Virus record (IMG/VR): IMGVR_UViG_3300042309_000815
Coordinates: 1 to 24,331 of that record
DNA: 24,331 bases
Reading direction: 5' to 3' (one strand)
Origin: a virus
The position numbers and the translations under genes are program-made. The first letter of the stretch is position 1. Every line of letters starts with the position of its first letter. The notes below the pieces were generated by a model. That model was not told the origin of the DNA and did not search any database. It worked only from the letters and a program-made list of their open reading frames with translations. This document shows, piece by piece, positions 7,612 to 21,220 of the stretch.

Positions 7612-7619
7612 TATAAATA
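7612..7619 (+). promoter_or_regulatory. Late promoter for gp18 (TATAAATA)
   Basis: A perfect match to the T4 late promoter box TATAAATA, in the 119-base gap between gp17 and gp18. It leaves an untranslated leader of roughly 80 bases that ends in a strong ribosome binding site (AAGGAGATAAAG just before the start at 7706). Strong expression of the sheath gene is expected from this site. Confidence 0.8.
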
Positions 7620-18377: not shown

Positions 18378-19853
18378 ATGGAAAAACTTGTAGCTAAAAA
18401 ACAAAACGAGGTGTACATCAGTGTTGACACCTCTTCATCAATACACAGAGAGCTATCAGACTTTTTTAAGTTTAAAGTTCCTGGTTATCAGTTTATGCCT
18501 GCATATAAAATGCGTATGTGGGATGGTAACGTGCGCCTGTATAATATGATGAATGGCACAATATATGTTGGTTTGTTGCCATACCTTCGAGAGTTTTGTA
18601 AATCAAGAGAGTATGAATTGGAGCTTGACTCTGAGCTTGTTGGTAAAAATAAGTTTTCTGTTGATGATTGTAAAAAATTTTTAAACACACTTGAGTTGCC
18701 GTTTGAAGCACGAGACTATCAAATACAAGCAGTACAAGAAGCAGTAACAAATAATAGGTCATTACTTTTATCTCCAACAGGTTCAGGCAAGAGTCTTATC
18801 ATATACGCTCTTACACGTTTTTACAATAAAAAAACTCTAGTAATTGTTCCAACCATATCTCTTGTATCTCAAATGTTTTCTGATTTTAAGCAATATGCAA
18901 AGAATCAACCTGAATACAATGTAGATAAGATATGCCATCCTATATACGGTGGTCAAGAAAAAATTACAAATAAAAAAGTTGTTATCTCAACATGGCAATC
19001 AATTTACAAAATGCCTAAAAGCTGGTTTGAACAGTTTGATGTTGTGGTGGGAGATGAAGTACATCTTTTTAAAGCCAAATCTCTTGTTGGCATAATGACA
19101 AAATTAGAAAACGCAAAGTACAGATTCGGAACAACAGGAACACTTGACGGAACACAAACACACAAACTTGTATTAGAAGGATTATTTGGTACAACTTTTG
19201 CCGTAACCACAACAAAACAGTTGATGGAGAAAAAACAGCTTGCGGAATTAAACATAGAATGTGTTGTGTTGAAATATGACAGCGACATAATAAAAGCACA
19301 CAAGAAAGACAACTATCAAGACGAAATAAAATTTTTAGTTCAACACGAAAAACGCAACATCTTTATACGCAATCTTGCTGTTAGTACCAAATCAAATTGT
19401 CTTGTAATTTTTCAGTTGGTAGAATTACATGGAAAAGTATTATATGAGTTGATTAAAGATAAAGCACACAAGTTAGATCCAAACAGAAAAGTGTTTTTTG
19501 TATCTGGTAAAACCGATGCTGATGCTAGAGAAGAGGTGCGACAAATAACAGAGAAAGAACGAGATGCCATTATTGTTGCATCGAGTGGAGTGTTTAGTAC
19601 TGGAATTAACATTCGCAACCTAGAAAACATTATTTTTGCATCTCCAACTAAAAGCCGCATAAAAACATTACAATCAATCGGGCGCACTTTACGCATAGGC
19701 GATCATTCAGATAAAGCAAAATTATATGACATAGTTGATGATATGACAGACAAATCGCATAAGAATTTTGCAGTAAAACATTTTCTTGAGCGAGTGAAGA
19801 TATACAATGAAGAGAAGTTCAAATACAAACTTCATCGAGTAAACTTGTTTTAA
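18378..19853 (+). CDS. uvsW: RNA-DNA / branched-DNA helicase UvsW
   Basis: A 491-residue homologue of T4 UvsW (503 residues), an SF2 helicase. It unwinds R-loops and branched DNA and so switches the phage from origin-dependent to recombination-dependent replication. The N-terminal DNA-binding domain (MWDGNVRLYNMMNGTIYVGLLP) precedes the motor: Q-type FEARDYQIQAVQEAV, motif I LSPTGSGKSL (131-140), Ia VPTISLVSQM, motif II DEVH (226-229), III FGTTGTLDG (250-258), IV FFVSGKTDADAREE, V STGINIRNLENIIFA and VI QSIGRTLRIG (432-441). All motifs are intact. The start ATG 18378 lacks a ribosome binding site. Transcription probably starts in the 50 bases upstream. Confidence 0.96.
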   Translation: MEKLVAKKQNEVYISVDTSSSIHRELSDFFKFKVPGYQFMPAYKMRMWDGNVRLYNMMNGTIYVGLLPYLREFCKSREYELELDSELVGKNKFSVDDCKKFLNTLELPFEARDYQIQAVQEAVTNNRSLLLSPTGSGKSLIIYALTRFYNKKTLVIVPTISLVSQMFSDFKQYAKNQPEYNVDKICHPIYGGQEKITNKKVVISTWQSIYKMPKSWFEQFDVVVGDEVHLFKAKSLVGIMTKLENAKYRFGTTGTLDGTQTHKLVLEGLFGTTFAVTTTKQLMEKKQLAELNIECVVLKYDSDIIKAHKKDNYQDEIKFLVQHEKRNIFIRNLAVSTKSNCLVIFQLVELHGKVLYELIKDKAHKLDPNRKVFFVSGKTDADAREEVRQITEKERDAIIVASSGVFSTGINIRNLENIIFASPTKSRIKTLQSIGRTLRIGDHSDKAKLYDIVDDMTDKSHKNFAVKHFLERVKIYNEEKFKYKLHRVNLF

Positions 19854-19867
19854 TAAATAAAAGTAAT

Positions 19868-20317
19868 ATGGCACCACTAATCAAAGTAATAAAATTAGTC
19901 ACAAACGAAGAGCTTATAGGTGTCGTACAGGATGGTCGAGACCTTGAACATACTGAAGATGGTTACACAACAGACAATCTTCTATTCATAACAGCTCCAC
20001 TTAAAATTGTTTCCACATACGATGAGTTAATAAAAGCTCACTCCATATATCTTTTAGATTGGATACCCTCAATAGAAGATGATACAGTTCCAATCGACAA
20101 ACGACAGGTTTTAACATTGGGTACTCCAAACGTAGATTTAGAGTCACACTACTATGAACTAATACTAGCAAAAGAATTGCAGCTACAATACAAACAAGAA
20201 GAAAAGAAGCCTGAAGAACCAGAGATACAAACTAAACCAGCAAAGAATACTACTGAGAAAAAGAAACTCAAAGACATACTCAAGGACACTGATTTTGACG
20301 ATGAGGACATGAATTAA
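19868..20317 (+). CDS. Sm-like-fold protein (hypothetical)
   Basis: A 149-residue protein. The first 65 residues read as an Sm/LSm-type barrel: IKVIKLVTNEELIGVVQD is the usual strand-turn-strand signature (V..L..G.E.IG.V), then LLFITAPLKIVSTYD and AHSIYLLDWIPSIED. The C-terminal third (about 105-149) is Lys/Glu-rich and probably disordered (KQEEKKPEEPEIQTKPAKN). I recall similar proteins near uvsW in marine T4-like phages but know no proven function. An RNA-chaperone or oligomeric-ring role would follow only if the Sm fold is real. It starts 14 bases after uvsW, without a clear ribosome binding site, and is followed by a hairpin that may terminate the transcript. Confidence 0.55.
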   Translation: MAPLIKVIKLVTNEELIGVVQDGRDLEHTEDGYTTDNLLFITAPLKIVSTYDELIKAHSIYLLDWIPSIEDDTVPIDKRQVLTLGTPNVDLESHYYELILAKELQLQYKQEEKKPEEPEIQTKPAKNTTEKKKLKDILKDTDFDDEDMN

Positions 20318-20341
20318 TCGCATTTTTTTGCGGTTTGTTTT
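20316..20341 (+). terminator. Possible weak terminator after the Sm-like gene
   Basis: A 7-bp stem, AATCGCA (20316-20322) with TGCGGTT (20329-20335), one G-U pair, T6 loop, then TGTTTT. It overlaps the stop codon. The small stem gives limited confidence. Confidence 0.4.
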
Positions 20342-20480
20342 CAGCAACTTACATCAGCGAAAATTAATAGGAATTAACAATCTGATACAGCATACGGCTT
20401 TTTGTAAAAACCGTTCCTATACGGCTATTTTAATGTTGGGATAATTATTCCGTAACCAACATGGAAAGTTCGGTTTTTTT
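20340..20480 (+). ncRNA. Candidate structured RNA / leader in the gap before gene 55
   Basis: The largest gap in the window (20318-20620, 303 bases) has no credible reading frame but several consecutive inverted repeats. ATCAG (20353-20357) pairs with CTGAT (20382-20386) around an inner hairpin TTAAT-AGGA-ATTAA (20364-20377). ACGG (20394-20397) plus TTTT pairs with AAAA plus CCGT (20411-20414). ATGTTGG (20433-20439) pairs with CCAACAT (20456-20462). A last stem, CCG-T-AAC (20450-20456) with GTTCGG (20468-20473), is followed by seven T, like an intrinsic terminator. Some pairings exclude each other: CCGT can also pair with ACGG at 20421-20424, and AAAAACCG (20406-20413) with CGGTTTTT (20471-20478). 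This could be a small RNA or an attenuator. No known family is recognised. Confidence 0.35.
20450..20480 (+). terminator. Possible terminator/attenuator before gene 55
   Basis: Stem CCG-T-AAC (one bulged T) with GTTCGG, loop of 11 bases, and a run of seven T at 20474-20480. It competes with the alternative stem ATGTTGG/CCAACAT, which would trap its 5' arm. Confidence 0.4.
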
Positions 20481-20585
20481 AATCTTGGTTTCATACATAC
20501 GCTTGTAGCCCGTTCAACACACCTTTATTAAAAATACCTTAATTCTTATTAGGCCGGAATGGGCCAAAATCATTTTATTATTTTC

Positions 20586-20614
20586 TTGTATTGGTCTTTG
20601 TCTAATGATACATT
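20586..20614 (+). promoter_or_regulatory. Possible sigma-70-type promoter for gene 55
   Basis: TTGTAT (20586-20591), a 17-base spacer and TACATT (20609-20614), with an extended -10 TG at 20606-20607. Matches are partial (3/6 and 4/6). The start of transcription would fall at or next to the gene 55 ATG. The remaining 20481-20585 is AT-rich with a GGCC/GGCC mini-repeat (20552-20566) and nothing else that I can assign. Confidence 0.3.
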
Positions 20615-20620
20615 GTTCAC

Positions 20621-21220
20621 ATGGCAAATAAGGAAGATAAAAAATTGCACTATGTAAACAACGGAGAGTTCCTTGAACACATGAAGGAACACATAGCTGC
20701 TGTTAAATTAGCAAAAAAGAATAACCAGTCAATCCCAAAAGTATCAGACTATATTGGGCAGTGTATTGTAAACATCGCAAACAAGTTGGCTAACAAGCCA
20801 AACTTCATGAATTATCCTTTTAGAGAAGAGATGGTCAGCGACGGCATTGAAAATAGTTTACAGTATCTAAACAATTTTGATCCTAGCAAGAGTTCAAATC
20901 CATTTGCTTACTTTACACAAATCATATACTTTGCGTTTGTTAGACGTATTCAAAAAGAAAAGAAACAGCTATACACAAAATATCGAATGATTGAAGAAAG
21001 TTTACTTCATGACATACATGACGTTGAGGGTGTTTCAGCTAATAAATATGGAAGCGATCAAGCGGATCTTAATATGCACGAGTTTGTAGAAAACTTTGAA
21101 AAGAGCCGAGAAAACAAAAAGAAAAAAATAAAAGAGGCAAAAGACTCTAAAAAGAAAAAGACTACAGGATCTGATTTTGATGCTCTTCTCGATCAATATG
21201 ACGATCTTCCTGAACAATGA
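20621..21220 (+). CDS. 55: Late-transcription sigma factor gp55
   Basis: A 199-residue homologue of T4 gp55 (185 residues), the small sigma-family protein that with gp33 and the gp45 clamp redirects host RNA polymerase to late promoters. Conserved stretches are LHYVNNGEFLEHM near the N-terminus, DYIGQCIVNIANKLANKPNF, FREEMVSDGIENSLQYLNNFDPSKSSNPFAYFTQIIYFAFVRRIQKEKKQ (residues 67-116, the sigma region 2 core). A Lys-rich linker (165-181) and a C-terminal SDFDALLDQYDDL (184-196) follow. The latter is the likely clamp-binding tail, as in T4. The NATAAATA boxes elsewhere in this window are its expected targets. There is no ribosome binding site, and the gene stands behind the structured gap. The next gene overlaps by ATGA. 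Confidence 0.93.
   Translation: MANKEDKKLHYVNNGEFLEHMKEHIAAVKLAKKNNQSIPKVSDYIGQCIVNIANKLANKPNFMNYPFREEMVSDGIENSLQYLNNFDPSKSSNPFAYFTQIIYFAFVRRIQKEKKQLYTKYRMIEESLLHDIHDVEGVSANKYGSDQADLNMHEFVENFEKSRENKKKKIKEAKDSKKKKTTGSDFDALLDQYDDLPEQ

Follow-up and report, generated by a model that had tools for sequence, protein, structure and literature searches.

What occupies the 303 bases (20318-20620) that separate the gene of an Sm-like protein from gp55, the gene of the late sigma factor, is the question raised by this locus. The window, meaning the whole stretch of DNA that was analysed, corresponds to a linear virus record of IMG/VR, 24,331 bases long; this gap is the largest among the genes listed, the next in size measuring 166, 144, 119, and 98 bases. 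The initial annotation proposed a small RNA, or an attenuator or riboswitch-like leader, ahead of gp55. The reading to which we now give about even confidence is that the gap serves as a divergent promoter region, from which a leaderless gp55 mRNA would be transcribed rightward and an antisense or small RNA leftward.

Organization of the locus

The genes around the gap are arranged in the order uvsW, a 149-aa gene, the gap, gp55, two small genes, and gp47 (SbcD-like). The uvsW helicase gene (18378-19853, plus strand) was assigned through phrog_16 and the Pfam domain UvsW_N, and gp55 (20621-21220, plus strand) through phrog_234 (E 4.8e-56). The 149-aa gene (19868-20317, plus strand) encodes an Sm-like protein of the cyanophage type, matching phrog_471 (E 2e-7) and related to PDB 3BY7, with a profile of seven relatives reaching 3by7_A at E 7.1e-5. 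We take 3BY7 to be an Sm-like protein of putative cyanophage origin, and one record of the 149-aa protein's family carries the annotation 'Sm-like RNA-binding protein'. Among the matches listed, the best-ranked named relatives of the region infect Pelagibacter and cyanobacteria; they are T4-like phages with 63-69% DNA identity. Those fetched are filed as Kyanoviridae, except S-SKS1, whose genus has no family name.

A coding function of the gap was considered and rejected: stop-free stretches of the window gap reach at most 41 codons on the plus strand and 35 on the minus strand. Longer stretches occur in the gaps of some relatives, reaching up to 110 codons (L273; L numbers designate the loci compared). 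A small terminator-like hairpin (20316-20335, plus strand), found by the terminator-like site scan, covers the stop codon of the Sm-like gene, and a GGCC/GGCC hairpin (20552-20565, plus strand), recognized by eye, is found again in several relatives in varied form. T4-type late promoter motifs, (N)ATAAATA, were seen by eye at 7612 and 13729 and also upstream of 2485, 9653, 15153, 16639, and 18378, preceding virion genes and uvsW in the window. The stretch TACATACG was considered as a late promoter and rejected, the late-promoter-like motif of the window being, by eye, NATAAATA.

Conservation of the gap within the clade

Relatives were found with gp55, the 149-aa protein, and DNA patterns, giving a clade of eleven long-gap members that comprises the window, L100, L101, L001, L128, L002, L003, L271, L272, L273, and L274, with gap lengths of 308-633 bases in the ten relatives. 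Gap identity to the window was 0.86 for L100, 0.71 for L101, 0.66 for L001, and 0.63 for L002, compared with 0.69, 0.44, 0.46, and 0.34, respectively, at four-fold degenerate sites of uvsW, gp55, and gp47, and shuffled gaps of five relatives aligned at a mean of 0.49-0.52 with a maximum of 0.56. Because gap identity exceeds both the four-fold sites and the shuffled gaps, the gap is, by this comparison, under selection in the closer clade members, with the far members retaining only single blocks; overall, L272 (0.47) and L274 (0.50) lie at the shuffle baseline, and L003 (0.56), L271 (0.56), and L273 (0.57) barely above it.

In the six best-aligned gaps the best-conserved blocks span 20359-20376, 20486-20520 (block 2), and 20581-20612, with the T-run region 20456-20485 likewise conserved. 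The initial annotation is borne out in part: the sequence is selected and a small RNA is possible, and the stems named at the outset are not the conserved features. In L001 and L128 the gap holds an extra 200-odd bases with CCTTCCTAACCTAAACC-like repeat units between block 2 and gp55, in place of which L272 carries TATTAGTATTA repeats.

A candidate promoter at the gp55 start codon

The gp55 promoter candidate (20586-20614, plus strand), of the extended -10 type, consists of TTGTAT (20586-20591), a 17-nt spacer with a TGn motif, and TACATT (20609-20614). The ATG follows 6 nt past TACATT, placing the predicted +1 at or beside the A of the gp55 ATG. Ten of the 11 clade members share this layout when the hexamers are picked by eye, L003 being the sole exception: TTGTAT-like or TTTACA, a 16/17 spacer, TGn-TANNNT, and a distance of 6-8 nt to the ATG. 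No Shine-Dalgarno sequence was found before gp55 in these ten. When the gaps were scored unprompted, the gp55 site was the best plus-strand site in 4/11, with 6 to 93% of shuffles reaching its score. The start codon itself is well placed, because gp55 protein matches begin at residues 1-11 and the next methionine of the window lies at about residue 21.

Judging from the position of the candidate promoter, the gp55 mRNA of the clade should be leaderless, in which case the gap RNA could not be the leader of that transcript. Leaderless mRNAs are a known kind, and clade gp55 resembles them in its predicted start at the start codon and in lacking a Shine-Dalgarno sequence (10/11); here such an mRNA is predicted for the late-sigma gene of one phage clade. 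A search for the leaderless promoter pattern on eight clade contigs returned three gp55 sites and four others, versus eight matches in the reversed control. In the 14 named relatives outside the clade, the distance from the best -10 element to the gp55 ATG is 9-33 nt.

Folding of the gap RNA and the attenuator reading

The RNA of the window gap folds no better than chance in the single sequence, with a z of -0.81 on the plus strand (18 of 100 shuffles fold equally well) and -1.15 on the minus strand (10 of 100). Terminator-like sites between 12000 and 24331 numbered 6 versus 6.9 expected from shuffles. The elements described in the initial annotation were located, including the 8-base direct repeat ATACGGCT at 20392 and 20419, the T7 run at 20474-20480 (plus strand), and the named complementary pairs, all readable in the window sequence. 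The repeat is present as a pair in the window, and the pair is not kept in L100, the closest relative. For the terminator-like stem with T7, the run is real, but the hairpin directly before it reaches only -1.8 kcal/mol in the window; among the eight clade members tested, it has -10.6 kcal/mol in L101, -7.1 in L128, and -3.5 in L271, and it was not found in L100, L001, L002, and L003.

If read-through transcripts carried an attenuator or riboswitch-like leader that controls gp55, it would resemble known systems of that type in the mutually exclusive pairings, which can be drawn in the window and, by eye, partly in L100 and L101, and a consensus fold of six sequences beats shuffles. The gap differs from attenuators and riboswitches in that its structures fall outside the predicted gp55 transcript, lying 140-250 nt upstream in the window, and block 2 stands anywhere between 108 and 515 nt from the ATG in ten members. 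In eight sequences of the best-kept helix, P1 (arms 20367-20373 and 20414-20420), neither strand has a compensatory pair; the other stems were compared by eye. No Rfam family matched the window at the gathering score; the stretch 20250-20680 gave just two snoRNA matches, with E values of 0.39 and 1.7. The attenuator leader proposed earlier is not supported because the promoter candidate 6-8 nt before the ATG (10/11) lies downstream of all the named structures, and we regard such control as highly improbable. On sequence grounds, two of the best-conserved blocks are a better fit to a promoter and a terminator on the minus strand.

The leftward promoter outside the clade

A near-consensus leftward sigma-70 promoter, recognized by sequence comparison, is present in the Sm-like/gp55 gap of 21/21 loci that were taken from public phage records and lie outside the clade; it points at the Sm-like and uvsW genes. 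These loci comprise 14 named phages, five cyanophages added later, and two single-cell phage records, nearly all Kyanoviridae; as the phages are related, the counts are not independent, and the named ones span many genera. Minus-strand sigma-70 sites with a score of at least 11 numbered 14 in the 34,973 bases of the 14 named loci, all of them in the Sm-like/gp55 gap and one per locus, and of 200 shuffles per gap, no more than one attained the score of the gap's leftward site. The five further cyanophages, fetched afterwards as a check, had the leftward promoter in 5/5, as did both single-cell phage records, fetched earlier; the one further minus-strand match in those seven loci lies inside uvsW of DSL-LC03.

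The rightward partner, again with a score of at least 11, was found in the gap of 19/21 loci (not in ACG-2014f or S-SKS1). Among IMG/VR gaps, 41/47 have a minus-strand site that no more than 1% of 100 shuffles could equal, the six that fail being L011, L013, L018, L019, L032, and L064. This set was freed of duplicates by the last 40 bases with near-duplicates kept, and the remaining 33 of the 80 loci were three clade members or had no upstream ORF, a gap below 40 bases, or a duplicate end. We conclude that the Sm-like/gp55 gap outside the clade commonly carries a predicted divergent sigma-70 pair, with -35 and -10 hexamers at a 15-19 spacing on both strands. No description of this leftward promoter was found in the literature, a weak claim given that the search did not cover Doron et al. 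(Syn9).

The leftward promoter candidate within the clade

In the window, the leftward candidate (20490-20517, minus strand) comprises TTGAAC (20517-20512), the 16-nt spacer GGGCTACAAGCGTATG, and TATGAA (20495-20490), directly followed by the discriminator ACCAAG (20489-20484). The predicted transcription start is the A at 20483, the seventh base past the -10 element. The 16-nt spacing and the CTACAnnCnTATn spacer are common to the eight clade members checked, with hexamers assigned by eye. L002 and L003 can be fitted by eye alone, and then with a different spacing or different hexamers; a clear copy is lacking in L272. Mean promoter scores over six aligned gaps, calculated with no choice of site, ranked 20610 (plus) and 20495 (minus) as the top two positions, and with ten aligned gaps 20495 (minus) ranked first. 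Since column-shuffled alignments often reach these scores (131/200 on the minus and 102/200 on the plus strand with six sequences, 107/200 and 188/200 with ten), the clade scores alone are not significant. The block-2 site is significant in none of the single clade gaps and is the best minus-strand site in only 2/11.

Conservation is higher in the spacer CTACAAGCGTATG than in the hexamers of the leftward promoter, which a plain promoter does not explain. This pattern would suit DNA elements, with block 2 and the module described below acting as an operator or a replication origin and the RNA features being incidental; in T4, according to PMC3016281, promoters are where R-loop origins begin, and UvsW clears them. 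In a relative of 92,930 bases, however, the cumulative GC skew has no sign change there, only a flat stretch, and the distance of the elements to gp55 varies. We consider a DNA element quite unlikely. Returning to the divergent promoters, the clade probably carries a weaker version of the divergent sigma-70 pair at the same place.

The predicted leftward transcript carries an A-run at about +4 to +10, the A7 run just past the predicted start that corresponds on the minus strand to the T7 run at 20474-20480; it is kept in most relatives and could allow slippage at initiation.

A conserved module and a candidate small RNA

Downstream of the predicted leftward start lies a conserved module (20359-20424, minus strand), measuring 63-66 nt arm to arm in 8/11 clade members and beginning 46-49 bases past the Sm-like stop codon in these eight, with the rest of the gap varying greatly. 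Its minus-strand end is formed by the P1 hairpin followed by a U-tract (GAUUUUUG or a variant; 20365-20360 in the window). Among eight members tested, the minus-strand P1 hairpin before the U-tract has -13.5 to -16.6 kcal/mol in L100, L101, L001, L128, and L271 (5/8), and a closed hairpin was not found in the window, L002, or L003. The positions of the promoter and the U-tract would give a candidate small RNA of about 125-128 nt (20356-20483, minus strand), supposing that the leftward promoter works in the clade and that its transcript stops at the module.

A covariance model, R1, built from the eight module members, recovered all eight at the locus, as expected, and gave nothing in L272, L273, L274, 40 distant IMG/VR loci, and the 21 public phage loci, L272 and L002 being searched at the locus only; its remaining matches either hit the opposite strand at that very site (L271, L100) or were marginal, at 15 bits. 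Comparison of the gap sequence with a phage collection gave no match beyond chance (E about 1 or worse). The pattern ACATACGCTTGTAGC has 39 stretches in IMG/VR and the AAAATYAATAGGAAT-type pattern 14, and both are gp55-adjacent in clade members only, so the view of the gap as a repeated element was rejected. A scan for the P1 pair (at least 120 stretches) found beside gp55, among L151-L229, only the known member L002 (as L203). The sole match of the module pattern in bacterial genomes, a stretch of an alphaproteobacterial MAG, was taken as chance (15.8 bits, no window-gene match adjoining). A pseudoknot of P1 with AAAAACCG/CGGTTTTT was also considered and set aside, its A/U part being trivial.

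Folding of the candidate RNA favours neither strand throughout. The window, L100, L128, L002, L003, L271 (z -4.89), and L273 give the better fold on the minus strand, and L101 (z -2.69), L001 (z -3.16), and L274 on the plus strand. The wobble pairs of P1 likewise point both ways: two sequences keep a plus-strand G-U pair where the minus strand has A-C, and two favour the minus strand at the outer P1 pair, with U-G there. Given P1 without compensatory change and with wobbles and folding pointing both ways, the module may belong to a leftward small RNA of about 125 nt, with a bidirectional terminator as a serious rival.

The rival would make the gap RNA a plus-strand 3' UTR or terminator of the uvsW/Sm-like operon, in which late read-through ends in P1/T7, insulating the gp55 promoter; in a variant, P1, which is flanked on each side by A-runs and U-runs, may halt convergent transcription both ways. 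The position of the P1 arm so close behind the Sm-like stop codon in the eight members with the module agrees with this, as do the U-runs that follow P1 on both strands (by eye), the G-U pairs kept on the plus strand, and the plus-strand hairpins of L101 and L128. The consensus fold points both ways, since alifold gave a z of -3.58 with six sequences, reached by 1/200 column shuffles, but only -1.06 with three (26/200), -0.98 with two (36/200), and -0.38 with ten (9/200). The rival is further weakened by the feeble plus-strand hairpin of the window, which was not found in four of the eight members tested, and the two sequences that favour the minus strand. Overall, we consider a plus-strand terminator rather unlikely, though it is the strongest competitor of the divergent-promoter reading.

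Proposed function of the predicted divergent promoters

Under the divergent-promoter reading, a rightward host-sigma promoter (20586-20614) would start the leaderless gp55 mRNA, and a leftward host-sigma promoter (20517-20490, start about 20483) would transcribe towards the Sm-like gene and uvsW. In the short-gap relatives the leftward transcript would enter both genes. In the 14 named phages, minus-strand terminators within the Sm-like gene are scattered; as none was seen at a shared position, antisense transcription into the gene is expected there. In the clade, the space from the leftward promoter to the Sm-like stop codon would have grown to hold the 63-66-nt module, and the leftward transcript would probably stop at the module's hairpin and U-tract, releasing a small RNA of about 125 nt.

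Concerning the timing and the role of the RNA, we infer that leftward transcription would provide early antisense RNA, before late transcription of the Sm-like gene and uvsW, and that antisense would fall as late transcription takes over. Extended to the whole family, this would amount to a timer in which sigma-70-driven antisense keeps Sm-like/uvsW expression low until gp55 takes over, with the clade unit representing a free-standing small RNA and the Sm-like protein a possible partner; this extension is speculative and we think it improbable. The Sm-like fold is shared with Hfq.

An antisense promoter beside the late-sigma gene in every public Kyanoviridae locus fetched suggests antisense use at the early-to-late switch, the 21/21 loci behind this idea including one without a family name. 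The adjoining Sm-like protein might find its target or partner here, and the idea is directly testable in the cultured phages Syn1, S-SM2, and HTVC008M.

Comparison with known systems

Divergent sigma-70 promoter pairs that give antisense transcripts are known from bacteria and phages, and a precedent for cyanophage antisense RNA is cfrI of S-PM2 at psbA (PMC5931967). The divergent sigma-70 pairs resemble these in having a host-sigma-type promoter opposite annotated phage genes, from which the RNA would act in cis as antisense, and they differ in locus and gene set and in that the promoter here is predicted from sequence and kept in 21/21 loci outside the clade. T4 uses a late promoter for uvsW, and UvsW clears R-loops (PMC3016281); the likeness of the present locus to T4 lies in this late expression of uvsW and in gp55 being the late sigma factor. 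The Straboviridae differ, their gp55 standing in other surroundings and without a leftward promoter in the loci compared (RB14, nt-1, Ac42; 0/3).

Additional features of the cyanophage loci

A stretch like TAACNCTGTAAGGGTTCA lies just past the leftward -10 element in the gap of L282, L283, L285, L286, L289, L291, and L293 (minus strand), forming a conserved initial transcribed stretch in several cyanophages. Several cyanophage loci also carry a further near-consensus rightward sigma-70 site with a score of 12.8 near the 3' end of gp55, facing gp47, at position 1218 in L283, 1227 in L285 and L286, 1290 in L289 and L305, and 1272 in L291.
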